Made by a program: the position numbers and the translations under genes
Shown: one piece after another, positions 3,044-24,752 of the stretch
Layout of the letters: every line of letters begins with the position of its first letter
Position numbering within the stretch: the stretch's first letter is position 1
Assembly: GCA_016188575.1 (NCBI GenBank)
Contig: JACPHN010000048.1
Span: 1-42,769 of the forward strand
Origin: Candidatus Schekmanbacteria bacterium
GTDB taxonomy: Bacteria; CSSED10-310; JACPHN01
DNA: 42,769 nucleotides
Reading direction: 5' to 3'
Notes under the pieces: generated by a model
What the model saw: only the letters and a program-made list of their open reading frames with translations
The model's database searches: none
Told to the model about the DNA's origin: nothing

Positions 3044-4441
3044 TTACTTGTCCTCAGGCGCACTCGTAGCCTGCCCTGCTGCCCCGACACCGGCTACCGA
3101 ATTCTCCCGGGGCGATGCTGCTGCAGCCGCCGCCACTTGCGTGGCCGCCTTCCACTTCATTGCGGTGAGGATTCTCACCCGGCCGCTCGGATGATCGAAG
3201 AAGATGATCTCCTCGATTGGTCCGGGAGCCAGCTTGCGGTAGTCGGCCAACTTGAGCGCGACCTGGGCGGCGGCGTCCGGCTCGCGCGCCGCGTTCAAAG
3301 CAAAGTAGTCCGCCTCCTGCTCGTTGGTCCGGGTGACCGTGCTCATTACCGGCGTCATCGCGAAGAAGTACAGGCTGACGAGTATCTGCAGCAGCGGCAG
3401 CCCCGCCACGTCGCCCACGGCGCGCACGCCCCAGCGCCGGCCGATGCCCAGCCTCACCCGATCGAAACATCGGCTGACCAGCCAGAAGCCTGCTGCGATG
3501 ATCACGCCGAAGGTTACGATCATCTCGTAGCCGTGGTTGAGTACGTAGTGACCGAGCTCGTGACCCATGACGTGCCGAATTTCGGGCAACGAGCAGCGCT
3601 TCAGCAGGTTGTCGTTGAGTGTGATGCGGTCTGTCCCCATGAAGCCGGAGACGTTCGCGCTGATTTTGGTGGTCTGGCGCGAAGCATCCACTTGGTAGAC
3701 GGCCTCGGTGTCCACGCCATTGGCGTGAGCCATCTGCAAGATCGGGTCGCGGACGGCGGCGGTCTGCAGCGGCGCATAGGTGTTGAAGAGCGGTGCGATG
3801 AACACCGGGCCGATGGTGGCTACGAAGGCGAAGAAGGTGGTAACCACGGCGGCGCCCCACAGCCACCAGGAACGCTCCATGCGGCGTAGCACGGCGTACA
3901 GGACGGTGAACAATACCCCTCCCAGGACGATTCCGACGCCGAGGCCTTTCGCGTCGTCGAGCAGCCATTCCGCAAAAGTCTGGGTCGCCAGGCCGTACTG
4001 CCACTCTCGGTAGAAATCCGCATAGACAAGCAATGGGAAGGCCGCGACCTCGGTGACGACCGAATATTGTACCCAGTATGGAAAGGACTGCAGTAGCGGC
4101 CGGCGGCTCAGGTGCTCGGCGCGGTCGCGCATGCGAGCTGACCAGCCGCTGGCGAGCAGCGTCCAATTGACGAGGATCGCGACGAGCGTCTTCACGAGCA
4201 TCAGCCAGTAGCCGCCCTCGAAGTAAGCGTCGGAGCGGGCGCGCACCTCGGATGGCACGCTCGACAGATACGCCTGGGTTGCCGCTTCGGGGTCCAGGGG
4301 CACACGCGCCGCGGCGGATGGGATCGGCGCCAGCGTCGGAACGGCAACGGCAGCCACGGCCGGTGGCTCCTGGGCGCGGCCCTCAGGTGCCGCAAGAAAC
4401 AGCGCGAGCACGGCGAAGATCGCGAGGCTCCACGGGCGCAT
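3044..4441 (-). CDS. M48-family (Ste24-like) membrane metalloprotease module, possible independent gene
   Basis: 465 residues if started at the ATG 4439-4441, in the same frame as the upstream heparinase-like protein. It begins with a signal/anchor (MRPWSLAIFAVLALFLAAP), then several membrane segments between residues about 75 and 220. The zinc site HELGH (about 292-296), followed by YVLNHGYE, and the downstream glutamate motif NEQEAD (about 372-377) are intact. This is the CAAX-protease/Ste24 layout: a membrane protein that cleaves small or misfolded membrane peptides. No clear Shine-Dalgarno precedes 4441, so translation may depend on read-through from the upstream domain. Protease family call is firm; the start is not. 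Confidence 0.75.
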   Translation of the reverse strand: MRPWSLAIFAVLALFLAAPEGRAQEPPAVAAVAVPTLAPIPSAAARVPLDPEAATQAYLSSVPSEVRARSDAYFEGGYWLMLVKTLVAILVNWTLLASGWSARMRDRAEHLSRRPLLQSFPYWVQYSVVTEVAAFPLLVYADFYREWQYGLATQTFAEWLLDDAKGLGVGIVLGGVLFTVLYAVLRRMERSWWLWGAAVVTTFFAFVATIGPVFIAPLFNTYAPLQTAAVRDPILQMAHANGVDTEAVYQVDASRQTTKISANVSGFMGTDRITLNDNLLKRCSLPEIRHVMGHELGHYVLNHGYEMIVTFGVIIAAGFWLVSRCFDRVRLGIGRRWGVRAVGDVAGLPLLQILVSLYFFAMTPVMSTVTRTNEQEADYFALNAAREPDAAAQVALKLADYRKLAPGPIEEIIFFDHPSGRVRILTAMKWKAATQVAAAAAASPRENSVAGVGAAGQATSAPEDK

Positions 4442-7069
4442 CGGGGATCGCGAAGCGACCCGTCCGTGCGAAATCGTGCTTCGTAGCTCCCGGCGTCGGA
4501 CAAGCCGCCAGCGCGCCAGCAAAGCGTGGAGCCCAAGCAAGCAACTGCTCATCGCGACGGGTCCGATTGGTGTGGGCGTGGTCGTTACCAGCAGCACACC
4601 GGCGGCGTCGGCGCTCCAGGTCTGGCCCGCGGTGATCGCAACGTCCACGCCATTCGGGCCGGAGATGATGAGGGCGTCATACGTGGCGTTCGGAGCCAAT
4701 CCCGTGATCAGGTGACGGGTGGTGCCCTCCGGTGCCGTGTAGGCGAGCCCGTCAAAGGGAGATTCGAGGTCAACCGGGAACAGGACGGTGGTCTCGCGCA
4801 CCGCAGCGCCCTCGTATGCGGTGCCCGTCATCGCCCGCAGCAAGGTTGCGGGATCGGCTGTGCTCCCCGCATCCGCGCCCTGAAGGACGTTGAGAAATCG
4901 CACGTCAGTCGGGTTCGCCGGGTCTTCGATCACCAGGCGCGACGTGGAGGGTTCGAGCTCCGCCAGTACTGCGAAGGATTCCGCCGGCGACGAGGTCAAG
5001 ATCGCATTCGGCGGCAACAGGTTTTGCATGTACAGTTTCTGCCCGTTTGGAGTCTCTACCGTGGCCTGCTGACCCTCGACCGTGGCGAGCGCGGTCAACG
5101 TGACGTTGAAGCGCTTGAAGCGGTTGGCGGTAAGCGACGTCGCACGGTCGTAAACGATCACGTGGTCGGGCTTGAGCCACAAGATCGCGCGGCTGGCGTG
5201 CTGAATATCCACGGCCGCGTTGTTCGGATCCCACTGGTTGGGTCGGTTGTAGAGATTTGTCGCATCTGCCTGGGCATAGGCGTAGGTCGCGGACGTGCTC
5301 ATCAGTACTGTGGGGTCGCCGGCGGCGAGGCCCTCGGTCCACTGGCCACCGCGCTCGGAAACCGGTCCCTCGAACCACTGCAAGTTGGCAGGAACGTCGT
5401 TTTGCAGCGACAGAGTATTGTGGTAGTCGGCAGTGGCCATGGCGATGTCCGCGGCGTTGGATGGGTAGCCGCTGCGCTCCTTGGTCAGCCACTCGCCCTT
5501 GCGGTAGAGCTCGAACTGGCCGCAATCTCCATGCTGGTGGTTGATGGTGGTCCAGTGGCAGAGAAAGTCGAACCAGGTGGCTTCGGGTGTAAAGTCGGTA
5601 CGCGCCAGCAGGCGCCCGAAGGGCTGGTCGACGAAGCTCACCGGCAGGGCGAGCCGCGGATCGGCCGTGACGGCAGGAGCTTCGGGATCGAAGAGCAGGA
5701 AGTACAGGATGGCCTGCGAGGCGTTGGCATTGCCCCAGATGCGACCCGCGCGCTCGTACAGACGGTCCTGGCCACCGGCCAGGATGTTCGTGGCCGCCCA
5801 CCGCAGGGTCGCGAGCCGGTCGGTTCTTCCCGTCGCCTGGTCCAGAGCGCCGATCGACCCCAAGGTCTCGACGTAGTCGTCGTAGATCCAGAAACGCAGG
5901 AGATCTCCGTAATTGGCCATCGCGAACAGTGGCCCAAGATAGCTATATGCCGGGTCCTCCGGCGTTTTTCCGGCAGGAGCGGCAGAATGCAGAAACCCGG
6001 CCAAGAAGCGGTCCCAGGTGCTGCTGGTGATCAGCCCCGCCTGTGGGCCGATGGCGTCCGGATCACCGTAGCCCGCCGTATACAGCGCCAGTAGTGTCTG
6101 ATGCAGGTAGCCCATGGCGTGCCCGTACAGGAAACCCTCTACCGGCAGGCCGCCGCTTGCAAGTCCCAGTCCATTCGGGTCGACGCGCAGCTCATTGGCT
6201 ACCACCGAGGAGTCCTCGAACATGCTGTAGGTCTGGTACAGCCAGGCACCCACCGCATTGACCAGGTAGCTGCGCATGGTGTTGCCGAGCTCGTCGATCG
6301 GATGCCCGGGCTGAACAGGCGGGTCGTCCTCCGCATCCAGGGCCAGAGACATCAGCGTCAACACGCGCTGGTGGCCGAGAAAGTAGTTGTTCATGGCCCA
6401 CCGTAACTGCTTGCGGTCCGACAAGAGCTGCGGGTCGTTCGTGACGCCGATCGGCTGCGGGTGCTCGTTGCCGGCGGTGGAGGCGTTGACGCACCGGTCC
6501 GACCACAGCAGGAACACTTTCTGGATCGTCTCCTTATCCTGAGCCGACAAGTAAGGGTAGATCCAATCCACCGTCAGCCCAAATGCCTCTCCCCAGTAGT
6601 TCGCGCGGTTATAGGTAGCGAACGCTCGACTGCGGAACGGCGCCTGAGGGTCATCCGGATCCGGGCCTTTCACGGCCTCGTTCATCACGTGCATGAGGAG
6701 GTTGAGCGCCCGTTGCGCGTGTACCGGGCGCGCGGCAGGATCCGGGTCGATCAATGACCAGAAGGCGAAAAATTCAGCGTACGCCTCGGTCGTGTACTGC
6801 ACCCAATTGTCGATGCCAGGATCGGGCCAGGTGGGGTTGGGCTGACCGCCCGGGAAAAACCTGGTGTCATACGTGTTGATGGCCTCCTGCAGAGCTGGCA
6901 ACAGGGCGTTCTGGTACATCGGGTTCGCGGCCGTGGCCCAGGCGCGCAGCCGCGGCAGGTCCTCGGCGCGGACCCACAGGCGAGGATGGCCCGTCACAGG
7001 TGCAGCGCTGACCGAGATGGGCCAGCCGATTGCGAGGAGCAGCAACAGCGCGAGCTTGCAGTAGAACAT
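3044..7069 (-). CDS. Heparinase II/III-like secreted protein fused in frame to M48 metalloprotease
   Basis: One open frame of 1341 residues. The ATG at 7067-7069 has GGAG eight bases upstream and a good signal peptide (MFYCKLALLLLLAIGWPISV). Residues about 30-480 are the alpha/alpha-toroid region of heparinase II/III and alginate-lyase-like enzymes, beginning with HPRLWVRAEDLPRLRAWA. Around residues 509-521 is NHQHGDCGQFELY, the His-rich start of the heparinase II/III beta-domain. These enzymes eliminate uronate-containing polysaccharides; the substrate cannot be told. Near residue 850 a hydrophobic segment plus RRR (LLGLHALLARWRLVRRRE) looks like a C-terminal membrane tail, yet no stop follows. 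The frame runs on about 13 residues into a second signal-peptide-like start (MRPWSL) and a complete M48 protease. This is either a true fusion, a lost stop codon, or two genes of which the second has its own start at 4441. Confidence 0.7.
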   Translation of the reverse strand: MFYCKLALLLLLAIGWPISVSAAPVTGHPRLWVRAEDLPRLRAWATAANPMYQNALLPALQEAINTYDTRFFPGGQPNPTWPDPGIDNWVQYTTEAYAEFFAFWSLIDPDPAARPVHAQRALNLLMHVMNEAVKGPDPDDPQAPFRSRAFATYNRANYWGEAFGLTVDWIYPYLSAQDKETIQKVFLLWSDRCVNASTAGNEHPQPIGVTNDPQLLSDRKQLRWAMNNYFLGHQRVLTLMSLALDAEDDPPVQPGHPIDELGNTMRSYLVNAVGAWLYQTYSMFEDSSVVANELRVDPNGLGLASGGLPVEGFLYGHAMGYLHQTLLALYTAGYGDPDAIGPQAGLITSSTWDRFLAGFLHSAAPAGKTPEDPAYSYLGPLFAMANYGDLLRFWIYDDYVETLGSIGALDQATGRTDRLATLRWAATNILAGGQDRLYERAGRIWGNANASQAILYFLLFDPEAPAVTADPRLALPVSFVDQPFGRLLARTDFTPEATWFDFLCHWTTINHQHGDCGQFELYRKGEWLTKERSGYPSNAADIAMATADYHNTLSLQNDVPANLQWFEGPVSERGGQWTEGLAAGDPTVLMSTSATYAYAQADATNLYNRPNQWDPNNAAVDIQHASRAILWLKPDHVIVYDRATSLTANRFKRFNVTLTALATVEGQQATVETPNGQKLYMQNLLPPNAILTSSPAESFAVLAELEPSTSRLVIEDPANPTDVRFLNVLQGADAGSTADPATLLRAMTGTAYEGAAVRETTVLFPVDLESPFDGLAYTAPEGTTRHLITGLAPNATYDALIISGPNGVDVAITAGQTWSADAAGVLLVTTTPTPIGPVAMSSCLLGLHALLARWRLVRRRELRSTISHGRVASRSPMRPWSLAIFAVLALFLAAPEGRAQEPPAVAAVAVPTLAPIPSAAARVPLDPEAATQAYLSSVPSEVRARSDAYFEGGYWLMLVKTLVAILVNWTLLASGWSARMRDRAEHLSRRPLLQSFPYWVQYSVVTEVAAFPLLVYADFYREWQYGLATQTFAEWLLDDAKGLGVGIVLGGVLFTVLYAVLRRMERSWWLWGAAVVTTFFAFVATIGPVFIAPLFNTYAPLQTAAVRDPILQMAHANGVDTEAVYQVDASRQTTKISANVSGFMGTDRITLNDNLLKRCSLPEIRHVMGHELGHYVLNHGYEMIVTFGVIIAAGFWLVSRCFDRVRLGIGRRWGVRAVGDVAGLPLLQILVSLYFFAMTPVMSTVTRTNEQEADYFALNAAREPDAAAQVALKLADYRKLAPGPIEEIIFFDHPSGRVRILTAMKWKAATQVAAAAAASPRENSVAGVGAAGQATSAPEDK

Positions 7070-7673
7070 TCCGAATTCTCCAACCAGCAGCCAGGATCGG
7101 GAGTCGTATCGGCGTCTTCCCTTTCTCCTGGACCGTCGAGTAGGGGCGGAAGGTGCCGCTTGTGCTGTCGTTGTACTCCGTGGCCATTGCCGCCCGCAAC
7201 GCCGTGACCCCCAGCTCGCCCGCCAGATTCGCGCGAGGGCACCATCACCGTCATGCGGGTGAAAGCCAGGATCCACGATTGGGCCTAAGCAAGATGCCGG
7301 AAGGCGCTCCCTTACAAGCTGGGCGTTCGGAACTGCCTGGCCTGCGTGCGCGGACCTCTGGTCCGCGTCGTCCAACGACAGTGAGCCCGACCGTCCCGCT
7401 TCCGCCAGTTCCCGCCGGCGGCACGGGCGCGCCCTTGCTTGCGCTCGCCTTGCTTGCCGGGTCAGGGGCGAGGCGCCGGGGGCGTGCTGGGTGACAAGCT
7501 CCCGGTGTCCTCTCGCGTGCGGTGCACCTGGGTCTTGCAATCGTCGCGACGCAACGGTAGATTCGCCCCAATTGACGCAGTGCGCCGGGTCGAAAGGACG
7601 GCCCCGAGGCGAGGAATGCCCGGGTGCGGCTCGACGCCCAACAAGGACATCTCTCTGAATGGAGGCGTACCGC
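7070..7673. other. Divergent intergenic region between heparinase-like gene and glnA
   Basis: About 600 bp without a convincing gene. It must hold the promoters of both flanking divergent genes. A degenerate copy of the common GAAAGC-GGATCCA-type intergenic repeat may lie at about 7250-7280. I searched by eye for a -24/-12 (sigma-54) promoter in front of glnA and found none. One plausible sigma-70-like site is listed separately. Confidence 0.4.
7535..7563 (+). promoter_or_regulatory. Possible sigma-70-type promoter for glnA
   Basis: TTGCAA at 7535-7540, a 17-base spacer and TAGATT at 7558-7563, each matching four of six consensus positions. It lies about 110 bp upstream of the glnA start. 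In GC-rich DNA such a match may be chance. Confidence 0.3.
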
Positions 7674-9086
7674 ATGACCCCTAGGGAAGTGGTCAAGCTC
7701 GTCGAAGACAACAACGTACAGTTCATCGACTTCAAATTCATGGACTTTCCCGGCCTCTGGCAGCACTTCAGCGTGCCCGCCAGGCAGCTCACCGAAGATT
7801 CGTTTCAGGATGGGTTCGGGTTTGACGGCTCGAGCATTCGCGGCTGGAAGTCGATCGATGAAAGCGACATGCTGCTGCTGCCCGATCCGACCACAGCGTT
7901 CATCGACCCGTTTGCGAAGTACCCCACGGTCAGCCTCATCGGCAACGTCGTCGATCCGGTGACGCGCGAGCCGTACAACCTGGATCCGCGCCACGTCGCT
8001 CAGAAGGCCGAAAAGGCGCTGGCCGCCACCGGGATCGCCGACACCGTCTTCTTTGGGCCGGAGGCCGAGTTTTTTATTCTGGACGACATCCGGTTCGACA
8101 CCAACGAGCACTCCTCGTACTATTACGTAGACTCGGACGAAGGCAAGTGGAACTCTGGAAGGCAGGAAAGCCCGAACCTCGGGTACAAGCCGCGCTACAA
8201 GGAAGGCTACTTCCCGGTGCCGCCGTCGGACACGCTGGCAGACTTGCGCAGCGAGATGACGTTCATCATGCAGAGCATCGGCATCGACGTCGAGTGCCAC
8301 CACCACGAAGTCGCAACCGCCGGTCAGACCGAGATCGACATGCGGTTCGACCAGCTCACGGCGATGGCCGACAAGCTGATGGTGTTCAAGTACATCATCA
8401 AGAACGTCGCGCGGCGGGCTGGCAAGACCGTCACGTTCATGCCCAAGCCGCTCTTCGGCGACAACGGCTCTGGCATGCACTGCCATCAGAGCCTCTGGAA
8501 GGACGGCAAGCCGCTGTTCGCCGGTGAATCGTATGCCGGCCTGAGCGAGATGGCGCTGCACTACATCGGTGGATTGCTCAAGCACGCTCCCGCCATTCTG
8601 GCGTTCGCGGCGCCGACGACCAACAGTTACAAGCGGCTCGTTCCCGGCTACGAGGCGCCGATCAACCTCGCGTATTCGCGCCGCAATCGCAGCGCCGCCG
8701 TGCGCATCCCGCTGTATTCGACATCGCCGAAAGCCAAACGCCTGGAGTTCCGCCCGCCGGATCCGAGCTGCAACCCCTACCTCGCCTTCAGCGCGATGCT
8801 GCTTGCGGGCATCGATGGGGTGCTCAACCGCATCGATCCCGGCGATCCGCTCGACAAGGACATCTACGCGCTCAGCCCCGAGGAGCTCAAGAACGTGCCG
8901 AAGCTACCCGGGTCGCTCGACGAGGCGTTGCAGGCGCTCGAGATGGACCACGAGTTCCTCATGCGCGGAAACGTATTCACCGAGGACGTGATCGATGGCT
9001 GGATCCGCTACAAGCGGAAACACGAGATTCTGGCCATCGCGATGCGGCCTCACCCCTACGAGTTCGCGTTGTACTTCGACATCTAG
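7674..9086 (+). CDS. glnA: Type I glutamine synthetase
   Basis: 470 residues, nearly the same as the 469-residue E. coli GlnA. It makes glutamine from glutamate, ammonia and ATP as a cytosolic dodecamer. The in-frame ATG at 7659 is less likely than 7674, because GGAGG at 7661-7665 sits eight bases before the latter. Visible family signatures: [13 protein letters not shown] (N-terminal beta-grasp), [11 protein letters not shown] (metal-binding Glu), [10 protein letters not shown], the ATP-site region [20 protein letters not shown] and [20 protein letters not shown]. Tyr398 in DIYALSPEE matches the tyrosine adenylylated by GlnE in proteobacterial enzymes, so control by adenylylation is likely. 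Monocistronic: divergent from the upstream gene and followed by terminator-like dyads. Confidence 0.97.
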
Positions 9087-9412: not shown

Positions 9413-9516
9413 ATAATGAGCGAGCGAGGATGCCCGGTCTCTCCGGACGGCGTCCTCAGCCGTGGAGCTCCCAGACGCTAGTCCCCTCCGCTACCCTGGT
9501 CTACCGGAACCTCGCA

Positions 9517-10284
9517 ATGGATATCGCGACAATTATCGGCATCGTAGCCGCATTTGGCCTCGTTTTGGCCTCGATTTTCATGGGCGGCAATCCCCTGGCT
9601 TTTCTTGACATCCCCTCAGTCCTCATCGTCTTCGGCGGCACGATAGGCGCCGTGCTGATAAACTACCCCATGGGAACCGTCATCGGCGTCATCGGGGTGG
9701 TGAAAAACGCTTTTTTTCACACGGAGGACGCACTCGGGGAAGTCGTCACCAAGATGGTGGAGTTCGCCAAGGTTGCCCGCCGCGATGGCGTTCTGGCCCT
9801 GGAGGCCGCGGCGGAGAAGGAATCGGACGCCTTTCTGGTGAAAGGCCTGAGCCTCGTCGTGGACGGCACCGAGCCCGAGCTGACGCGACAGATTCTCGAC
9901 ACCGAGCTCGAGTACAAGGCCTCACGCCACAAGGTAGGGGCCGGAGTCTTCGAGGCCATGGGCAATTTCGCGCCGGCACTGGGCATGATCGGCACGCTCA
10001 TCGGGCTGGTGCAGATGCTCCAGAATATGTCCGATCCGACCTCGATCGGCCCGGCGATGGCGGTCGCGCTGATCACCACGCTGTACGGCGCCGTGATTGC
10101 CAACCTCGTCTGCATCCCGATCGCCGGCAAGCTGAAGAAACGCAGCGACGAAGAACAGTTGGCGGGCGAGATGGTGATCGCCGGCATCATGTCGATTCAG
10201 TCCGGCGATAACCCGCGCATCGTCGAGCAGAAGCTCAACACCTTCCTGCCCCCGGCGGCGCGGCAGCTTTCCCAGGAGAAGTAA
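9517..10284 (+). CDS. motA: Flagellar stator protein MotA
   Basis: 255 residues, typical for MotA/PomA. It forms the five-subunit ring around MotB that turns ion flow into torque on FliG. The start at 9517 (MDIATIIGIVAAFG) gives the usual N-terminal membrane helix; an in-frame ATG at 9430 would begin only a few bases after the predicted transcript start. Four membrane segments are visible, with a large cytoplasmic loop between the second and third, and the diagnostic PALGMIGTLIGLVQML and GAVIANLVCIPIAGKL in the last two helices. First gene of the operon, five bases before motB-like 1. Confidence 0.95.
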   Translation: MDIATIIGIVAAFGLVLASIFMGGNPLAFLDIPSVLIVFGGTIGAVLINYPMGTVIGVIGVVKNAFFHTEDALGEVVTKMVEFAKVARRDGVLALEAAAEKESDAFLVKGLSLVVDGTEPELTRQILDTELEYKASRHKVGAGVFEAMGNFAPALGMIGTLIGLVQMLQNMSDPTSIGPAMAVALITTLYGAVIANLVCIPIAGKLKKRSDEEQLAGEMVIAGIMSIQSGDNPRIVEQKLNTFLPPAARQLSQEK

Positions 10285-10289
10285 GAGCG

Positions 10290-11186
10290 ATGGGAAAAAC
10301 GAGAGGGAGCGTGCGGCCGAAGCTCCCGGGCTGGGTGCCTCTCTTTACCTCACTGATGATCATCATGCTCGCCTTTTTTATTCTCCTGACGACCTATACC
10401 CAGTTCGAGGAAAAGAAGACGGTCGACGCGCTCGGCTCCATTCACGGCAAGTTCGGACCCTTCGACGCCGAAGGCGGAGAGGGCTCGAGCGGGAAGCCCG
10501 GGATTCGCACGCCAGGTGATTCGCTGGTCGGCGCCGACGCGGGCAACGCGGTCACCTCGGCGGAGGTGGCCGAATTCCAGGAAGCGCGGTTGAAAGAAAA
10601 GTTGGAGCAGGCGCTCGCGCAGGCCGGGATCGAAGGCGAGGTCGAGGTTGCGGAGACGGCGCGCGGCGTGGAGCTGAGCGTGGGGGAGACGGTGTTTTTC
10701 GAGCCGGGGTCGGCGGCGCTTTTGGCTTCGGCCGGCACCCGGGTCGATGCGCTATGCAAGGTGATCGCGACGACACCGAACGACCTGCTCGTAGAGGGGC
10801 ACACCGATTCGACACGCCCGTCGCCGTCGGCACGGTACAAGACGAACTGGGAGCTGTCCACGGCAAGAGCGGTGGCGGTTCTACGGTACCTGGTCGAGTC
10901 CTGCGGCCTGGCGCCGAAAAGGGTGTCGGCGGCGGGGCGGTCCGATCTGTTCCCCAAGGAAGACAATGGCACGACTGCTGGACGAGCGGCAAATCGGCGC
11001 GTGGAGATTATTCTTGTCGGTGCGTCGCTGAACGACCGAGCGGATCAGATGGGTGACGGACAAGCGAACCCCGGCTCGCCTGGTGGCGGAAAACCGGGCG
11101 TGGGACCGCGGCCGCGCGGCACCGGTCCGCGCGGGGGTCAGGGCCGGCTGGATCCGGAAGGATTCGATACGATGGAGGCGATTTGA
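10290..11186 (+). CDS. MotB-like OmpA-family protein lacking the proton-binding Asp
   Basis: 298 residues. Layout: a short cytoplasmic N-terminus, one membrane helix (about 15-34), a linker, an OmpA/MotB peptidoglycan-binding domain (about 150-250, with VEGHTDS, NWELSTARA and ANRRVEI intact) and a Gly/Pro-rich tail of about 45 residues not usual in MotB. In MotB the helix carries an invariant Asp in the S-D-M/L motif; here the motif reads LFTSLMIIMLAFF with Ser21 at the Asp position. It follows motA by five bases and is followed at once by a second, canonical motB. It may form a mixed stator with that protein, or serve as a wall anchor without ion conduction. Confidence 0.85.
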   Translation: MGKTRGSVRPKLPGWVPLFTSLMIIMLAFFILLTTYTQFEEKKTVDALGSIHGKFGPFDAEGGEGSSGKPGIRTPGDSLVGADAGNAVTSAEVAEFQEARLKEKLEQALAQAGIEGEVEVAETARGVELSVGETVFFEPGSAALLASAGTRVDALCKVIATTPNDLLVEGHTDSTRPSPSARYKTNWELSTARAVAVLRYLVESCGLAPKRVSAAGRSDLFPKEDNGTTAGRAANRRVEIILVGASLNDRADQMGDGQANPGSPGGGKPGVGPRPRGTGPRGGQGRLDPEGFDTMEAI

Positions 11187-11188
11187 CC

Positions 11189-11932
11189 ATGGCCGATGAT
11201 CGCGAACCGGCCGTCGAAGGAGCTCCGGATGGTGCCTGGATGCTGACGTTTTCCGACATGACGACGCTGTTGCTCACCTTTTTCGTCATGCTGGTGGGCA
11301 TGGGCTCCATGAAAGAGGAGAAGCTCGCGAAGCTTTCCTCGGAGTTTCGCCAGCAGGCAATCTCATTCGGCGTGGCCATGGCCGTGTCCTCCGAATTCAG
11401 AATGGAAAACCCGATCGCCCCGATCGTGCCGGCGCAGGTCGATCTCAAGGCGTCGGAGGCGAGGATCAAGGCGTTTCTGGAGGACGAAGCCGACCCCGGC
11501 GACGGCGTCTCCGCGTACTATCAGGGAGGCCGAGGTCTGGTGATCTCGCTCGAAGAAGGCGTGGCCTTTCCCGCGGGCAGGGCCGAGGTGGCGCCGGGCG
11601 CAAAGGAGCAGTTGGACAAGATCGCCAAGGTCATCAAGAGCCTTCCGGGCGAGGTCAAAGTGGAAGGTCACACCGACAACAAACCGATTCACTCCGCGCA
11701 GTATGGTTCGAACTGGGAGCTTTCAACGGCGCGAGCGGTGGCGGTGGTGCAGTATCTGGCGGATCGGGAGGGCATCGACCCGCAGCGGCTTTCCGCGGTC
11801 GGGTACGGCGAGTATCGACCGGCCGACCGAAACGACACGGAGGCGGGTCGAGCCGCAAATCGCCGCGTGGAAATCGTGATTCCCGAAGGCGGGCGAAGGG
11901 CGCAAGTGGGAGGCGACAATGGCAATCGATGA
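11189..11932 (+). CDS. motB: Flagellar stator protein MotB (canonical)
   Basis: 247 residues. The start ATG at 11189 is ten bases after GGAGG inside the end of the preceding gene; a TTG at 11183 would be too close to that site. The membrane helix contains the conserved channel aspartate, Asp23, in TFSDMTTLLLTFF. The periplasmic OmpA-like domain has VEGHTDNKP, NWELSTARA and ANRRVEI for peptidoglycan binding. With MotA it forms the ion-driven stator. Its 3' end overlaps fliL by 14 bases. Confidence 0.93.
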   Translation: MADDREPAVEGAPDGAWMLTFSDMTTLLLTFFVMLVGMGSMKEEKLAKLSSEFRQQAISFGVAMAVSSEFRMENPIAPIVPAQVDLKASEARIKAFLEDEADPGDGVSAYYQGGRGLVISLEEGVAFPAGRAEVAPGAKEQLDKIAKVIKSLPGEVKVEGHTDNKPIHSAQYGSNWELSTARAVAVVQYLADREGIDPQRLSAVGYGEYRPADRNDTEAGRAANRRVEIVIPEGGRRAQVGGDNGNR

Positions 11933-18469: not shown

Positions 18470-19864
18470 ATGAACGTGAAGACCTACCAGGCGCCCGACA
18501 TGCGTAGCGCGATCGCGATGGTGAAAGCGGATCTCGGGGACGAGGCGTACATTCTGTCGACCAAGCGCGTGCGCAAGCGCACGCTCGGGTACCCGCTCGG
18601 GCGACCGATGCTGGAGGTATGCGCGGCGGTGGATCCGGAAGGGCCGCAGTCGCCGGCGACCGCCGCGCGCCGCACCGCATCCCCCGTCGCCGCTGACCGG
18701 CTGCCGCCCGTTGCGCCGGTGCCCGAGGCTGCCCCGGCGCCTGGAGCGCCGGCGCCCTTCTTCGAGCGAATCGTTGCGGAGCTCGCGGCGCAGGAGCCGC
18801 CCACGGCGACGCCGAGGCACGCCCAGGGCGTGAGCTCGCGCCCGTCCCGGCACGGGCAGCAGGCCGAGGTCGCGGTCGCCGGTCACGCCGCGTCGCCGCG
18901 GCGTGCTCGGGAAGCCGTTGCACCGGAGACAGGCGCCGGCGCGGCGGTGGCGACTGCGCCCGCGTGGGGCGATGAGGGGGAAGGGGAAGTCGCCAGCGAA
19001 GCTCGCCACGTCGTCGGCGAGCTCGAACGCATGGTCTCTTTCCTGACGACGTCGGGCTTCGCCTGGCTCGGTCTTCCCGGCAGCACCGACTCCTTTCGCG
19101 CCTATGCCGAGCTGGTCGAGAACGGCGTGCTTCCCCGGTACGCGCGCAAGATTGTGCACACGGCATGCCAGTTCGGCGGCGATGAGCCCGCGACCGGAGA
19201 GGAGCTGGATCGGCGGATTCGCCAGGCGCTGACCCAGCACGTCTCGGTCAGCGGCCCACTGCGAACCCGCGGTGGCAAGGGGCCGACTGCTCTGGCTCTC
19301 GTAGGCCCGACGGGCGTCGGCAAGACCACGACACTGGCCAAGCTGGCCGCGCGCTTCGCACTTTGCAAACGGCTGCGGATTTCCTTCGTGACCGTGGACA
19401 CCTATCGCGTCGCGGCGGTCGAGCAGCTCCAGGTCTACGCCCGCATCCTCGGCGTGCCCGTGGACGTCGCGCGCAGCCGTGCCGACCTCGAGTCGATCAT
19501 GGCAGCCCGCCGCGACCGCGACCTCATTCTCATTGACACCGCCGGACGCAGCCCGCGGGACGAGCGGATCGGCGAGCTGGCGAAGATCCTGGAAGCTCCC
19601 GGCGTGGAAAAGTGGCTGGTCACCGCCGCCACCACCAAGGCCGAAGACTACCAGCTCGTGGCCTCGGCGTTTCGTTGCCTCGAGCCCTCGCGGCTCATTC
19701 TCACCAAGGTGGACGAGACGACCAGCCCCGGCTTCTTTGTAAACAGCCTCATGGCCAGCGGTCTACCGCTGTCGTACGTGACCACTGGACAAAACGTTCC
19801 GGACGACATCGAAGCCGCGACACTCAAGGATATCTGCAACCGCCTCTTGGCTGGAGGGTTGTGA
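18470..19864 (+). CDS. flhF: Flagellar SRP-like GTPase FlhF
   Basis: 464 residues. ATG at 18470 has GGAG six bases upstream; a TTG at 18458 is in frame but lies within that site. N-terminal B domain (MNVKTYQAPDMRSAIAMVKADLG split over 1-23, then EAYILSTKRV), a long Ala/Pro-rich linker (about 60-175), an N domain of helices, and the SRP-type GTPase G domain from about 270: P-loop VGPTGVGKTTT, TVDTYRVAAVEQL, LIDTAGRSPRDE and ILTKVDET. FlhF fixes the polar site where new flagella are built. Its TGA overlaps the flhG ATG. Confidence 0.96.
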   Translation: MNVKTYQAPDMRSAIAMVKADLGDEAYILSTKRVRKRTLGYPLGRPMLEVCAAVDPEGPQSPATAARRTASPVAADRLPPVAPVPEAAPAPGAPAPFFERIVAELAAQEPPTATPRHAQGVSSRPSRHGQQAEVAVAGHAASPRRAREAVAPETGAGAAVATAPAWGDEGEGEVASEARHVVGELERMVSFLTTSGFAWLGLPGSTDSFRAYAELVENGVLPRYARKIVHTACQFGGDEPATGEELDRRIRQALTQHVSVSGPLRTRGGKGPTALALVGPTGVGKTTTLAKLAARFALCKRLRISFVTVDTYRVAAVEQLQVYARILGVPVDVARSRADLESIMAARRDRDLILIDTAGRSPRDERIGELAKILEAPGVEKWLVTAATTKAEDYQLVASAFRCLEPSRLILTKVDETTSPGFFVNSLMASGLPLSYVTTGQNVPDDIEAATLKDICNRLLAGGL

Positions 19865-20730
19865 TGACGGATCAGGCGGGAAGATTGCGCGAGCTGACAG
19901 GGCGCGGCGGGGGGCCTTCGCCGCGCGTGCTCGCGATTTCCAGTGGCAAGGGGGGCGTTGGCAAGACCAACGTGGTGGTCAATCTCTCTTTGGCGTTTGC
20001 CGGCATGAACCAGCGGGTCGTCGTCATGGACGCCGACTTCGGCCTGGCAAACGTCGATATCTTGCTCGGCCTTGCGCCCAAATACACACTGCGCCACGTC
20101 CTGTTCGGCAGCGACGAGGAGCGCATGCGCCTCGAGGACATCATCATCGAGGGGCCCGCAGGGATTCGCATCATTCCCGCGAGCTCCGGCATGCAGGAGC
20201 TGACGAACCTCAACGACGAGCAGCGCAGCCGGTTGTTCGGAGCGTTGTCGCGCCTGGCGACGCAAACCGACATCCTGGTGCTCGACACCGCCGCCGGCAT
20301 TTCCGACAACGTGGTCCAACTGCTGCTCGCGGCGAACGAGATCATCCTGGTTACGTGCCCGGAACCTACGGCCATCGTGGACGCGTACGCTCTGGTCAAG
20401 GTCGTGTCGGGGTACGAGTTCGACAAGAAAATTCAGGTCGTGGTGAATATGGCAAACTCAGACGCAGAGGGGCAGGCCGTGTTTGAGCAGCTCGACGCAG
20501 TAGTTGACAAGTTTTTGGGGCGCCGCCTAGACTATTTGGGAGCAGTAGCCCGCGACGACCACGTCTTGCGGGCCGTGCGCCAGCAACAGCCGCTCTTGGG
20601 TCTGTATCCCAACTCGGCTTCGGCGCGCGGATTTGTCGCGCTCGCGCGGCAGCTCCTCCATGAGCCGCCCCAGCAATCGAAAGCTGGTGGTTTCCGGCGC
20701 TTCGTGCGCCAGTTGGTGGGCCGGCGATAA
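19864..20730 (+). CDS. flhG: Flagellar number regulator FlhG (FleN, MinD-like ATPase)
   Basis: 288 residues. Deviant Walker A SSGKGGVGKTN near residues 27-37, VVMDADFGLANVD and LVLDTAAGISDNV place it in the ParA/MinD group. FlhG limits flagellar number by stimulating FlhF GTPase activity and, in several genera, by holding back the sigma-54 activator FleQ/FlrA. A DQAGRLRELTG segment precedes the ATPase domain, matching the N-terminal FlhF-activating motif region (DQAxxLR). The C-terminus is basic and probably amphipathic (GFRRFVRQLVGRR), as in MinD membrane targeting. Confidence 0.95.
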   Translation: MTDQAGRLRELTGRGGGPSPRVLAISSGKGGVGKTNVVVNLSLAFAGMNQRVVVMDADFGLANVDILLGLAPKYTLRHVLFGSDEERMRLEDIIIEGPAGIRIIPASSGMQELTNLNDEQRSRLFGALSRLATQTDILVLDTAAGISDNVVQLLLAANEIILVTCPEPTAIVDAYALVKVVSGYEFDKKIQVVVNMANSDAEGQAVFEQLDAVVDKFLGRRLDYLGAVARDDHVLRAVRQQQPLLGLYPNSASARGFVALARQLLHEPPQQSKAGGFRRFVRQLVGRR

Positions 20731-20746
20731 AAGGGAGGAGGACATT

Positions 20747-21529
20747 ATGGGATCGGCAGCGCATGCCGTGAGAATCAACGAGATTTGGCATTCCAAGGTT
20801 GAGGGGGCACTGTCTCTGGTGGATCGCGACGAGCTGATACTGGAATACGCGCCGCTTGTGAAGTATGTCGCGCAGCGGGTGAGCTCGCGGCTGCCGCGTC
20901 AGGTCGAGCTCGACGACCTGGTGTGTGCCGGAGTCCTCGGGCTGATCGACGCCATCGACAAGTTTGACCCGAGCCGGGGGATCGCTTTCAAGACGTATGC
21001 CGAGCTGCGCATCCGGGGAGCGATTCTCGACGAGCTCCGCGACATGGACTGGGTGCCCCGCTCGATTCGCAAGAAGCGGCGCGAGGTCGAGCAGGCGTAC
21101 CGGGAAGTGGAGCAGCGCCTTGGGCGTCCCGCCGAGGACGTCGAAGTGGCGCAGGAGCTGGGAATTCCGGTGGCGGAGCTACACGAGCTGCTGGAGGAAG
21201 TGCGCGGCCTGACGCTCGGGAGCTTCCAGGAGATAGGCGCCATGGGCGGTGCCGAGGAGGCGGGCGACGAAGGTCTGCTGCGGTTCATTGCGGATCCCGA
21301 AGCCGAAGATCCGGTCGCGGTGTGCCACCGCGAGCAGCTTGTCGAGCTGATCGGCCAGGCCATCGACGCGCTGCCGGAGAAGGAGCGGGAAGTCATGCTG
21401 CTGTACTATCAGCACGAGCTGACCATGAAAGAGGCCGGAGAGGCGCTGAACGTCACCGAGAGTCGCGTGAGTCAGCTTCATACCAAGGCCATCATCCGCA
21501 TCCGCAAGTACCTGGCCAATCTGGTCTGA
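20747..21529 (+). CDS. fliA: Flagellar sigma factor FliA (sigma-28)
   Basis: 260 residues. The ATG at 20747 follows a strong GGGAGGAGG. Sigma-70 family regions in order: region 2 (LVKYVAQRVSSRLP, LDDLVCAGVLGLIDAIDKFD, FKTYAELRIRGAILDELR), region 3 (VPRSIRKKRREVEQAY) and region 4 (ALPEKEREVMLLYYQHE, LTMKEAGEALNVTESRVSQL). This is the FliA/WhiG type that reads late flagellar and chemotaxis promoters. No anti-sigma gene flgM is seen in the window. It sits between flhG and fliM, so it is produced with the early/middle genes. Confidence 0.96.
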   Translation: MGSAAHAVRINEIWHSKVEGALSLVDRDELILEYAPLVKYVAQRVSSRLPRQVELDDLVCAGVLGLIDAIDKFDPSRGIAFKTYAELRIRGAILDELRDMDWVPRSIRKKRREVEQAYREVEQRLGRPAEDVEVAQELGIPVAELHELLEEVRGLTLGSFQEIGAMGGAEEAGDEGLLRFIADPEAEDPVAVCHREQLVELIGQAIDALPEKEREVMLLYYQHELTMKEAGEALNVTESRVSQLHTKAIIRIRKYLANLV

Positions 21530-21544
21530 CGAGGAGCATCGTTC

Positions 21545-22597
21545 GTGGCGACTCAAGAGATCCTCAGCCAGGCGGAAATCGATTCGCTGCTGACGACGAT
21601 GAACCTCGGCATGGATCAGCCGCCGGGGCCGCCGCAGCCGCCCTCGCGGTCTGCGGCGTTTCCCGGGGGCGCGGAACCGCCGCCACCACCGCCGCCGTCC
21701 GGCAAGGCGCCGATACCGCACAAGGTCGCCAACTACAACTTCCGCCGGCCGGATCGGGTGTCAAAAGAGCAGATCCGGGCGCTCAACTACCTGCACGATC
21801 GCTTCGCCCGTAACTTCTCGTCGTCGCTCTCCGCCTATCTCCGCAGCATCGCCGAGGTCAACCTGGTGAGCGTGGAGCAGCTCACCTACGCCGAGTTCAT
21901 CCTCTCGATTCCCGATCCCACGAGCTTCAATACCATCGCCATGAGACCGCTCGATGGTAGCGTCGCTCTGGAGCTCAATCCGTCCCTGGTGTTTCCGCTC
22001 ATCGATCGGCTCCTCGGCGGCCCGGGCAACCCTGTTACCGAAGAGCGCACGCTCACCGAAATCGAGCAGAACGTCATCGACGGCGTCATTCGTCTGGCCC
22101 TGGACGACCTGCGGACGGTGTGGCGCAGCGTCCTTGACATCGACCTGCAAATCCTCGCTCGGGAAACCTCACCGAAACTGGTGCAGATCGTGGTATCGAG
22201 CGAGGTGGTCATCCTGATCGTGTTCGAAATCAAGGTGGGTAACGCCATCGGCATGATGAACTTCTGCATTCCCGCCTTCGTCATCGAGCCGGTGGGGGAG
22301 AAGTTCGTACAGCAGACACACACCGAGCACAAGAAGATCAGCACGCCTGCCGACATCCGCCGACTCGCCGATCACGTCCGGCGGGCCCGCATGCACGTCA
22401 GCGCCGAGCTCATGGGCACGCACATCACCGTTCGCGACCTGATCGATCTGCGCGCCGACGATCTTATCCGGCTCGAGCAGCGCGTCACCGATCCCGCCAC
22501 CATTCTCGTCAACCTTCGCCCGAAATACGAAGGCGCGATCGGGCTGCGCGGCAATAGCCGTGCCGTGCAGATTCTCCGCTTTCAGCAGGAGGAGTGA
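21545..22597 (+). CDS. fliM: Flagellar motor switch protein FliM
   Basis: 350 residues. GTG start with GAGGAG about eight bases upstream. The N-terminal peptide EILSQAEIDSLL binds phospho-CheY. A Pro-rich stretch (about 25-58), the CheC-like middle domain that meets FliG (about 65-245, e.g. YNFRRPDRVSKEQIRAL) and the C-terminal SpoA domain (about 270-345) follow. Part of the C-ring; four genes of the switch lie in this operon except fliG, which is absent here. Confidence 0.97.
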   Translation: MATQEILSQAEIDSLLTTMNLGMDQPPGPPQPPSRSAAFPGGAEPPPPPPPSGKAPIPHKVANYNFRRPDRVSKEQIRALNYLHDRFARNFSSSLSAYLRSIAEVNLVSVEQLTYAEFILSIPDPTSFNTIAMRPLDGSVALELNPSLVFPLIDRLLGGPGNPVTEERTLTEIEQNVIDGVIRLALDDLRTVWRSVLDIDLQILARETSPKLVQIVVSSEVVILIVFEIKVGNAIGMMNFCIPAFVIEPVGEKFVQQTHTEHKKISTPADIRRLADHVRRARMHVSAELMGTHITVRDLIDLRADDLIRLEQRVTDPATILVNLRPKYEGAIGLRGNSRAVQILRFQQEE

Positions 22598-22599
22598 CG

Positions 22600-23688
22600 G
22601 TGGCCAAACTCGACCAGCGCCGTTCGGAAGGGCTCTTCGAGCTTGCGGAGATCGTGGCCTGGAGCTCCGAATCCGTGCTGTCGACCTTGCTGCAATGCCA
22701 GGTGGAGATTCGCCCCGTCGAGGTGCGGGCGGCGAGCCTCGAGGACATCAAGAACGAGCTCCGGGGGCGATGCGCGGCGATGAAGACATCCTTCGTGCGC
22801 GGGCTCGTGGGGGATCTGCTCTTTCTGATGTACATCCCCGACGCTTCGGCCGTTGTCAACCTGATGATGGGCGGCGAGCCGACGCGTTCGGAAGATCTCC
22901 CCGAGGACGGCCTGGACGCCTTGACCGAGGCCACCAATCAGATCATGGGAACGTGCTCCACGGGCCTCGGAGATCGCCTCCGCGACTCGATTTCCAACGG
23001 CCCGGCCGAGGTTCAGGAGGTCGATTTGTCCGACCCCGACGAGAACCTGGGGTACATGATCGCCGAAGACAATGTCGCGCTCATCCAGTACACCCTGTCC
23101 ATCGAGGGGATGCTGCCGACAGAGTACTTCCAGCTCATCCCCATGTCTGCGGCGACGGTGATGGCGGACGCGTTTCGGCCGTCCGAGGAGATGAGCCAGG
23201 CGATGATCGACGACATCTTCCAGAGCAAGGAAGAGGCGACGTCGCCGCGCACACAGCACGTCCCATTGCCGGCGGCGCCCGCCGCTGCGGCGCCGCGACC
23301 CGCGGGGGCTGCAGCGCCGGTGCCGCAACCGGCCGCCGCGGCCGGCGGCGCCGCCGCTTCCTTCGCCGCGCCAGGAGCCGCTGGCGCGGTACCTCAGGTG
23401 CAATACGCACCTGCTCCCACCTTCGAGGCGCCCAACATCCAGCTCATCCTCGACATCGAGCTGCCGATCTCGGTCCGCCTCGGCGAAGCCGAGATGCTCC
23501 TGGAGGACGTGCTCCGGCTGTCTCCCGGCTCCATCATCGAGCTCGGCCAGTCCGCCGACGAACCCGTGGATCTGCTGGTCAATAACAGGCGCATCGCGCG
23601 CGGCGAAGTGGTCGTCGTGGACAGCAACTTCGGCCTGCGGATCACTTCTGTCGAGAGCGCGCTCGAGCGCATCAAGAGCCTGCGATGA
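22600..23688 (+). CDS. fliY: FliY-like switch protein: CheC-type phosphatase domain plus FliN domain
   Basis: 362 residues. AGGAGG at 22587-22592 puts the start at GTG 22600; GTG 22594, overlapping the fliM stop, is too close to it. Domains: a CheC/CheX/FliY-like region (about 1-205), an Ala/Pro-rich linker (about 210-270), and a FliN/SpoA domain (about 280-358: LDIELPISVRLGEAEMLLED, LSPGSIIELGQ, IARGEVVVVDSNFGLRI). In the CheC-type part, Asp106, Glu110 and Asn113 (DALTEATN) and Pro135 fit the D/S-x3-E-x2-N-x22-P phosphatase signature, except that 21 residues separate Asn and Pro. It may dephosphorylate CheY at the switch. Second FliN domain of the operon. Confidence 0.85.
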   Translation: MAKLDQRRSEGLFELAEIVAWSSESVLSTLLQCQVEIRPVEVRAASLEDIKNELRGRCAAMKTSFVRGLVGDLLFLMYIPDASAVVNLMMGGEPTRSEDLPEDGLDALTEATNQIMGTCSTGLGDRLRDSISNGPAEVQEVDLSDPDENLGYMIAEDNVALIQYTLSIEGMLPTEYFQLIPMSAATVMADAFRPSEEMSQAMIDDIFQSKEEATSPRTQHVPLPAAPAAAAPRPAGAAAPVPQPAAAAGGAAASFAAPGAAGAVPQVQYAPAPTFEAPNIQLILDIELPISVRLGEAEMLLEDVLRLSPGSIIELGQSADEPVDLLVNNRRIARGEVVVVDSNFGLRITSVESALERIKSLR

Positions 23689-24752
23689 TGGATCCGTGGT
23701 GCCTTGGCCAGATCGTGCTCGATCTCGTCTTGCTGGGTCTGATAGTCTATCTCTGGCGGCGGGTACGATCGGGGGCACAGCTCGAGCTGTTGCGCAGTTA
23801 CAAGGAGGAGCTCGGCCAGCTTGCGCTCGAGCTCGAGCAGCTCACGGAAGAGGCGAACGAGGCGATCAAGACGCTGTCCGCGCGGCGCCGTGAGGTCGCG
23901 GCCGCGGAGCCGGCGCTGCCCGTGCCGGCGCTCGCGCCCGCCAGCAGCACTGTGACGCGTCCCGGCGAGCGGCCGGCCGTCGCGCGCGAGGGAATTCCGG
24001 TGTTGCCGTGGGAAAACGACGAGCCGCCGGCGCCGCGGCTGCCCGTTGCGGCAGCGCCCGCCCAGAGGCCCGCACCGCCGATGCCGCCGGCGCGCGCCAC
24101 CGGGCCCGCAGCGCCGCTTGCGGCGCCACCGACCTCAGCGCCGCCGCGAGCTCAGTTGATTTCCCCGCCCCGCCGGCCCGAAGCCGATGTCGTGGCACTC
24201 CGCGACGAGCTGGTGCGGGCGCTGTCGGAGCAGGCCGGCCTGCAGCCGGCGGAAATCGCCGCCTTGCAGGCTGCCAGCGTTTCGGTGGCCTCGGGAAAGC
24301 TGTATTTGTTGGTGCCCGGCATCCGCCCCGGCCAGGAACAGCGCGTGCCCGTCCCGCCCGCGGCGATCGGGACGTTTCGACAGTATCTGGAGCTGCGGGT
24401 CGAAGCGCACGCCGGTGACCCGCTGTTCTGCAATCGCAACAATAATCCGCTTTCCGTGCGCGCCATTCGCGACATTCTGGGCGGCGCCTCCGAGCAGGAT
24501 ACCTATTCCGCACCGCTGATGCCGGCGCGCTCCGCGCTCGCGCGCCACGACGACAACAAGCCGCCGCAACCGGCGCCCGCAGCGGAGGCATCCCAAGGGG
24601 TTGAGGCGGAAGCGGAGGCGTCGCGCCGCGCCGTGTACGGCCTTGCCGACACCGGCCTGAGCGTCGAGGAGATTGCGCGCCGCATGCAGCGCGATCCGGC
24701 CGAGGTCCGGCTCATCCTCGCCTTTCGGCGGGCCGAGGAGAGCACGCGGTAG
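23685..24752 (+). CDS. DUF2802-like flagellar-operon protein with an inserted, apparently dead tyrosine-recombinase-like domain
   Basis: 355 residues; ATG overlaps the fliY stop. Order: membrane helix (about 9-24), coiled coil (about 30-70), Pro/Ala-rich linker (about 73-165), a globular part (about 169-268), another linker, and a C-terminal helix-turn-helix-like segment (about 316-350, VYGLADTGLSVEEIARRMQ, then AEVRLILAFRR). The anchor, coiled coil and C-terminus match DUF2802 proteins, commonly encoded in flagellar clusters. The globular part resembles the first half of a tyrosine recombinase catalytic domain: AGLQPAEIAALQ (normally GLRxxEIxxL), a beta-hairpin ending QRVPVPPAA, and GDPLFCNRNNNPLSVRAIR. 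Gln187 replaces the catalytic Arg; the H-x-x-R and Tyr parts are absent. I infer a binding role, not recombination. Confidence 0.7.
   Translation: MMDPWCLGQIVLDLVLLGLIVYLWRRVRSGAQLELLRSYKEELGQLALELEQLTEEANEAIKTLSARRREVAAAEPALPVPALAPASSTVTRPGERPAVAREGIPVLPWENDEPPAPRLPVAAAPAQRPAPPMPPARATGPAAPLAAPPTSAPPRAQLISPPRRPEADVVALRDELVRALSEQAGLQPAEIAALQAASVSVASGKLYLLVPGIRPGQEQRVPVPPAAIGTFRQYLELRVEAHAGDPLFCNRNNNPLSVRAIRDILGGASEQDTYSAPLMPARSALARHDDNKPPQPAPAAEASQGVEAEAEASRRAVYGLADTGLSVEEIARRMQRDPAEVRLILAFRRAEESTR

Follow-up and report, generated by a model that had tools for sequence, protein, structure and literature searches.

FipA, a gammaproteobacterial protein of the DUF2802 family (PF10975), binds and recruits the flagellar GTPase FlhF and is needed for the polar placement of FlhF (PMC11620751). 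In Vibrio parahaemolyticus it has 163 amino acids and is composed of a transmembrane (TM) helix, a coiled region and a single DUF2802. Residues G110, E126 and L129 of Vibrio FipA are reported to be invariant, and the substitutions G110A and L129A abolish FlhF binding (PMC11620751). SwrB of Bacillus subtilis, a monotopic protein of the flagellum, acts via FliP to activate the export apparatus and is also connected with the C-ring (PMC4526659). Among the tyrosine recombinases, the roles of R213, K239, H309, R312, H335 and Y344 have been described for XerH (PMC5241119). In MrpR of phage SPbeta, a tyrosine recombinase fold that does not act as a recombinase has taken on the role of a DNA-binding repressor (PMC10516654). 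In the literature searched, we found no report of a tyrosine recombinase fold fused into a flagellar protein.

Such a fusion is apparently encoded by a contig of Candidatus Schekmanbacteria bacterium (JACPHN010000048.1, assembly GCA_016188575.1), of which positions 1 to 42,769 are called the window below. One run of flagellar genes in it is ordered flhB (15279), flhA (16348), flhF, flhG, fliA, fliM, fliY and then a fipA-like gene, the product of which is designated P0001:

18458..19864, plus strand: flhF, the expected partner (TIGR03499 above cut-off)
19612..20730, plus strand: flhG, MinD-like ATPase (ORF as listed; the match begins at residue 105)
20633..21529, plus strand: fliA-type flagellar sigma factor (ORF as listed)
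21545..22597, plus strand: fliM
22594..23688, plus strand: fliY/fliN with a CheC-like part
23685..24752, plus strand: fipA-like gene with an inserted Xer half-domain (355 amino acids, P0001; its ATG overlaps the fliY stop)

The true start of flhG is probably further in than that of the listed ORF, after flhF, and the same probably applies to fliA. Complementary flagellar genes (fliF, fliG and others) are carried by another contig of the same genome.

Several other features of this genome were recorded. The window contains a motA-like gene followed by two consecutive motB-like genes (9430-11932 in all; motB-like 10290-11186 and 11183-11932). The minus strand at 3044-7792 carries an ORF of 1582 amino acids with an M48 CAAX-type peptidase at its end; the N-terminal 1100 residues have no Pfam match, so the start may be misplaced. 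A second type III secretion cluster of non-flagellar appearance, with FliF-like and FliG-like proteins, is present on contig C93 (14000-33500). It includes a sigma-factor-like gene, and a topA–xer–hslU block, recognized by eye from ORF starts, is situated within a few kilobases.

The ORF of the fipA-like gene (23685-24752) is intact, and its start overlaps the stop of fliY in the sequence ATGATGG. The protein can be divided into the following regions, all on the plus strand:

23700..23756, plus strand: N-terminal membrane helix, residues 6–24 (Kyte–Doolittle mean 2.14 over 19 residues)
23772..23909, plus strand: coiled-coil region, residues about 30–75 (77% of heptad a/d positions hydrophobic)
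23910..24179, plus strand: Pro/Ala-rich linker, residues 76–165
24180..24488, plus strand: dead first half of an Xer-type tyrosine recombinase catalytic domain, residues about 166–268 (the module)
24243..24245, plus strand: Gln187, aligned with the first catalytic Arg (R173 of Cre, R213 of XerH)
24489..24614, plus strand: second linker, residues 269–310 (predicted confidence low at its start)
24624..24728, plus strand: C-terminal FipA/DUF2802/DUF6115-like end, residues about 314–348, with G324, E340 and L343

The C-terminal end is helix–turn–helix-like. A preliminary description of this DNA had noticed the membrane helix, the coiled coil and the HTH-like end in the last gene of the flagellar operon, and these are placed here at residues 6–24, 30–75 and 314–348.

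P0001 resembles FipA in its membrane helix, its coiled coil and the position of its gene, which is found in or directly after a flhA–flhF–flhG–fliA operon. The spacing of G324, E340 and L343 is identical to that of FipA G110/E126/L129 (16 and 3). It differs from FipA in its length, its long linkers, the recombinase half-domain and the lack of a Pfam DUF2802 score (no match up to E 1). DUF6115 (PF19610) matched P0001 with 15.5 bits (E 0.024), below the curated cut-off of 27 bits. DUF6115 tail proteins occur in the flagellar operons of genomes labelled Poribacteria, Abyssobacteria and Hydrogenedentes. Like P0001, they have fliM, fliY and fliA as neighbours and combine a TM helix with a coiled coil; unlike P0001, they have about 178–314 amino acids and no recombinase module. 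The C-terminal end of P0001 is 58% identical to that of an Abyssobacteria protein over 33 residues.

Five sister proteins from similar operons of other phyla (L057, L058, L082, L083 and L090) have the membrane helix, the coiled coil and the C-terminal end, and one of them, L057, is above the cut-off for both DUF6115 and DUF2802. On the basis of this DUF2802 score, the G/E/L spacing and the presence of flhF in the operon, we read P0001 as a FipA-type protein, one that has no DUF2802 score of its own and whose G/E/L motif is common to many DUF6115-type tail proteins. It had been described at first as a DUF2802 protein: the kinship stands, through the sister proteins and the motif residues rather than a direct Pfam match. 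The connection to flagellum placement made at the same time has become more concrete, with a FipA-like protein and flhF in one operon. In three of the sister operons, a long gene of about 400–520 amino acids, perhaps FliK-like as judged by eye, lies 3' of the tail protein gene (L057:9840-11396, L058:10182-11417 and L120:4226-5416). There is no such gene after the fipA-like gene of the window, where the next ORF is on the opposite strand.

The module has an above-chance relationship to the front half of the tyrosine recombinase catalytic domain. The NCBIfam XerC model matched residues 158–274 with E 1.7e-6 (model positions 115–232 of 295), far under the equivalog cut-off, and the archaeal XerA model matched the isolated module with E 4.4e-4. 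Pfam Phage_integrase (PF00589) matched with E 1.7e-4 when the module was searched by itself and 4.3e-4 when the entire protein was used (20.5–21.8 bits, below the Pfam cut-off of 27.1 bits), and PHROG integrase families matched the same stretch weakly. Sixteen Xer and integrase proteins were combined into a local profile; it scored the module at 42.1 bits, and the best of 5000 shuffles reached 7.5 bits. When this profile was applied to 60 flagellar loci of other genomes and to the window, the sole match was the fipA-like protein (E 1.4e-11). The module is 22–28% identical to the Xer sequences compared. Its codon-position GC resembles that of the rest of the gene, and the reading frame is continuous across the module and its flanks. 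The resemblance of residues about 169–268 to a recombinase half, first noticed by reading the translation, is thus confirmed by the XerC match and the local profile.

The half-domain is predicted still to fold. A single-sequence AlphaFold model (AF2) of residues 161–288 consists, in this order, of two helices, three strands, a helix, two short strands and a last helix, and its pLDDT is about 70–77 across most of the core. Foldseek against the PDB placed XerH at ranks 1–3 with weak scores (E 0.05–0.23), and with a second aligner the best recombinase reached Z 3.5 (rmsd 7.3, 77 residues). A model based on an alignment with 22 viral integrase halves has a mean pLDDT of 80 (core blocks 76–92), and recombinases are at the top of its list of matches: Cre with Z 12.3 (rmsd 3.8, 111 residues), XerH with Z 10.5 and XerD with Z 9.4, the matches spanning 105–113 residues at rmsd of about 4. 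Because recombinase sequences made up its alignment, this second model is partly circular and serves as support but not as independent evidence. Structure prediction with a fold search, which the preliminary description had proposed as a check, thus returned XerH as the top three matches (weakly) and Cre and Xer proteins at Z 9–12 once an alignment was used. The structural match stops at Cre residue 277, before H289 and R292.

What the module has in common with XerC, XerD, XerH and Cre is about 100 residues forming the front half of the catalytic domain, the fold and several structural residues. It differs from them in being tethered to the membrane, in having neither the core-binding domain nor the second half, and in the replacement of the catalytic Arg and Lys. 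Positions shared with Xer proteins are Arg173 (LRD), Gly185, Glu190, Tyr-Leu at about 234–235 in the following helix, and Phe248; the pattern PLFxN...LSVRxIRxIL is kept as well. Where Xer proteins have G-L-R, P0001 has G185-L186-Q187. The position of the hairpin Lys falls on Arg214 in one alignment and on Pro211 in another, and is Lys in neither. The recombinase alignment ends ahead of H-x-x-R; alignment with Xer proteins and an Xer tail profile revealed no recognizable H-x-x-R, H/W or Tyr segment after the module. There is no N-terminal core-binding domain either, the XerC model being matched only from position 115 of 295 and a Pro/Ala linker preceding the module. DNA recombination by the fipA-like protein is therefore excluded on its sequence, with Gln187 in place of Arg, the hairpin Lys lost, and the second-half segments and core-binding domain missing. 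The losses of the Arg, the hairpin Lys, H-x-x-R and Tyr had been listed in the preliminary description, and its picture of a recombinase fold without chemistry in a membrane-anchored flagellar-operon protein is upheld. An internal deletion joining the first half directly to the catalytic Tyr was also considered, as ILGGASEQDTY resembles LLGHASLSTTQIY. It was rejected because the Tyr274 region scored 0.9 bits against the Xer tail profile, under many shuffles.

There is no Xer signal in 114 flagellar or tail loci, which include 46 distinct tail proteins from many families, and in an alignment with the five sister tail proteins the module is found in P0001 alone. In the phyla of two sister proteins, the matches were confined to Xer recombinases, tails lacking the module and weak hits to unrelated sequences. 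Xer recombinases were the only matches to the module in the few same-phylum genomes sampled. The plasmid collection had no match to P0001, and the genome collection no close relatives by FliM. The same architecture next to fliM/fliN, which it had been suggested to look for in related genomes, is thus absent from every other genome sampled. Since all 46 sampled tail proteins of this kind lack it, the module is, as far as the sequences compared indicate, an insertion, seen in one draft genome.

The genome itself has 13 further matches to the recombinase family, 11 of them above cut-off. Foreign XerC proteins are better matches to the module than these are, and by this comparison the module does not closely replicate an integrase gene from its own genome. 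Across 60 genomes, the two top-scoring matches are Xer proteins from its own phylum. A half-domain tree has little resolution and puts the module on a long branch (2.79 changes per site). The module looks like a real one-off domain recruitment. Among seven other genomes of the same phylum, a weak FliM match was observed in just one, and flagella may therefore be rare or recently acquired in the phylum.

We give an even chance to the reading that P0001 is a FipA-type protein of the FlhF/FlhG system in which the inserted Xer half serves as an interaction or spacer domain and the C-terminal end binds FlhF. The N-terminal helix would anchor P0001 in the inner membrane, and the coiled coil would probably self-associate. 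By analogy with FipA of Vibrio, Pseudomonas and Shewanella, the C-terminal DUF2802/DUF6115-like end would probably bind FlhF, and P0001 would help to recruit or activate FlhF at the site of flagellum assembly. The first half of an Xer-type catalytic domain would have been inserted in the linker between the coiled coil and this end. There it would most likely be a protein-interaction or spacer domain that alters the reach, oligomerization or partners of the FlhF-binding end. That P0001 binds FlhF, that it acts at the pole and that the module has this function is what we infer.

It is somewhat unlikely, in our estimate, that the module is a passive or decaying xer fragment fused into a FipA-like linker, its frame kept solely because the C-terminal end must be translated. 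Its presence in one genome only, its position between two low-complexity, insertion-tolerant linkers and its long branch are all consistent with such an insert. Unconstrained decay, however, would be expected to damage the core too, whereas the module scores 42 bits at 22–28% identity, with the structural positions and foldable core kept and the catalytic Arg and Lys lost. A predicted foldable core at such identity without catalytic residues argues for some retained use, although a single sequence is no proof of selection. A more specific use, the dead half-domain being a working part of a flagellum-placement protein that adds a partner (DNA, a polar protein or a cell-division protein), is doubtful.

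P0001 could also work like SwrB, activating flagellar export, and not like FipA. Both are membrane-attached proteins of flagellar assembly, a likeness by description only, and the fipA-like gene lies directly after fliM–fliY; SwrB, in contrast, acts through FliP on the export apparatus. The retention of the FipA motif residues and the presence of flhF–flhG in the same operon speak against a SwrB-like role, which we consider unlikely.

Even less probable is a DNA-binding role of the module, either as a tether between the chromosome and the complex at the flagellar pole, the link first put forward for this gene, or as a regulator of transcription. MrpR is a precedent, and the operon encodes FlhG, an ATPase of the MinD/ParA type. 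However, MrpR retains the whole fold, whereas P0001 is a membrane protein that has half of a single domain. The core-binding domain and catalytic second half are absent, the Arg and Lys contacting the scissile phosphate or a nearby base are gone, and a single Lys is left in the module. The net charge (+1 in the trimmed register, −3 with wider edges; median of viral halves about +6) is at the low end for real recombinase halves but within their range, a weak and not decisive argument against DNA binding since the ranges overlap. DNA binding by the module is possible; the proposed link to the chromosome is unsupported, with the phosphate-contacting Arg, the hairpin Lys, the second half and the core-binding domain all missing.

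Chance or convergence, suggested by the Pfam score below the curated cut-off and by the weak Foldseek match of the single-sequence model (E 0.05), is very improbable against independent profiles that converge on one stretch, none of 5000 shuffles near the module score and a predicted secondary-structure order equal to that of a recombinase half. An assembly or binning artefact is just as hard to credit: the draft genome has 275 contigs and 3.68% contamination, but reading frame and codon-position GC run on over the module and flanks, and the complementary flagellar genes on another contig also led us to reject a contaminant contig, an idea raised by the mostly FliM-less phylum.

The FipA-type reading of P0001 and its sister proteins suggests that FipA-like proteins extend well beyond the gammaproteobacteria, to several phyla with FliM–FliY–FliA operons. 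A module without function would reduce the case to a curious fusion in a single draft genome. A working one would show that half of a recombinase domain can serve as an independent binding module, whereas MrpR, the precedent found among dead recombinases for a new role, keeps the whole fold. The FipA linker would then be a site where lineages add domains, retuning flagellar siting, and if the module does bring in a new partner, flagellar siting in this lineage would be tied to an input that other FipA proteins do not perceive.
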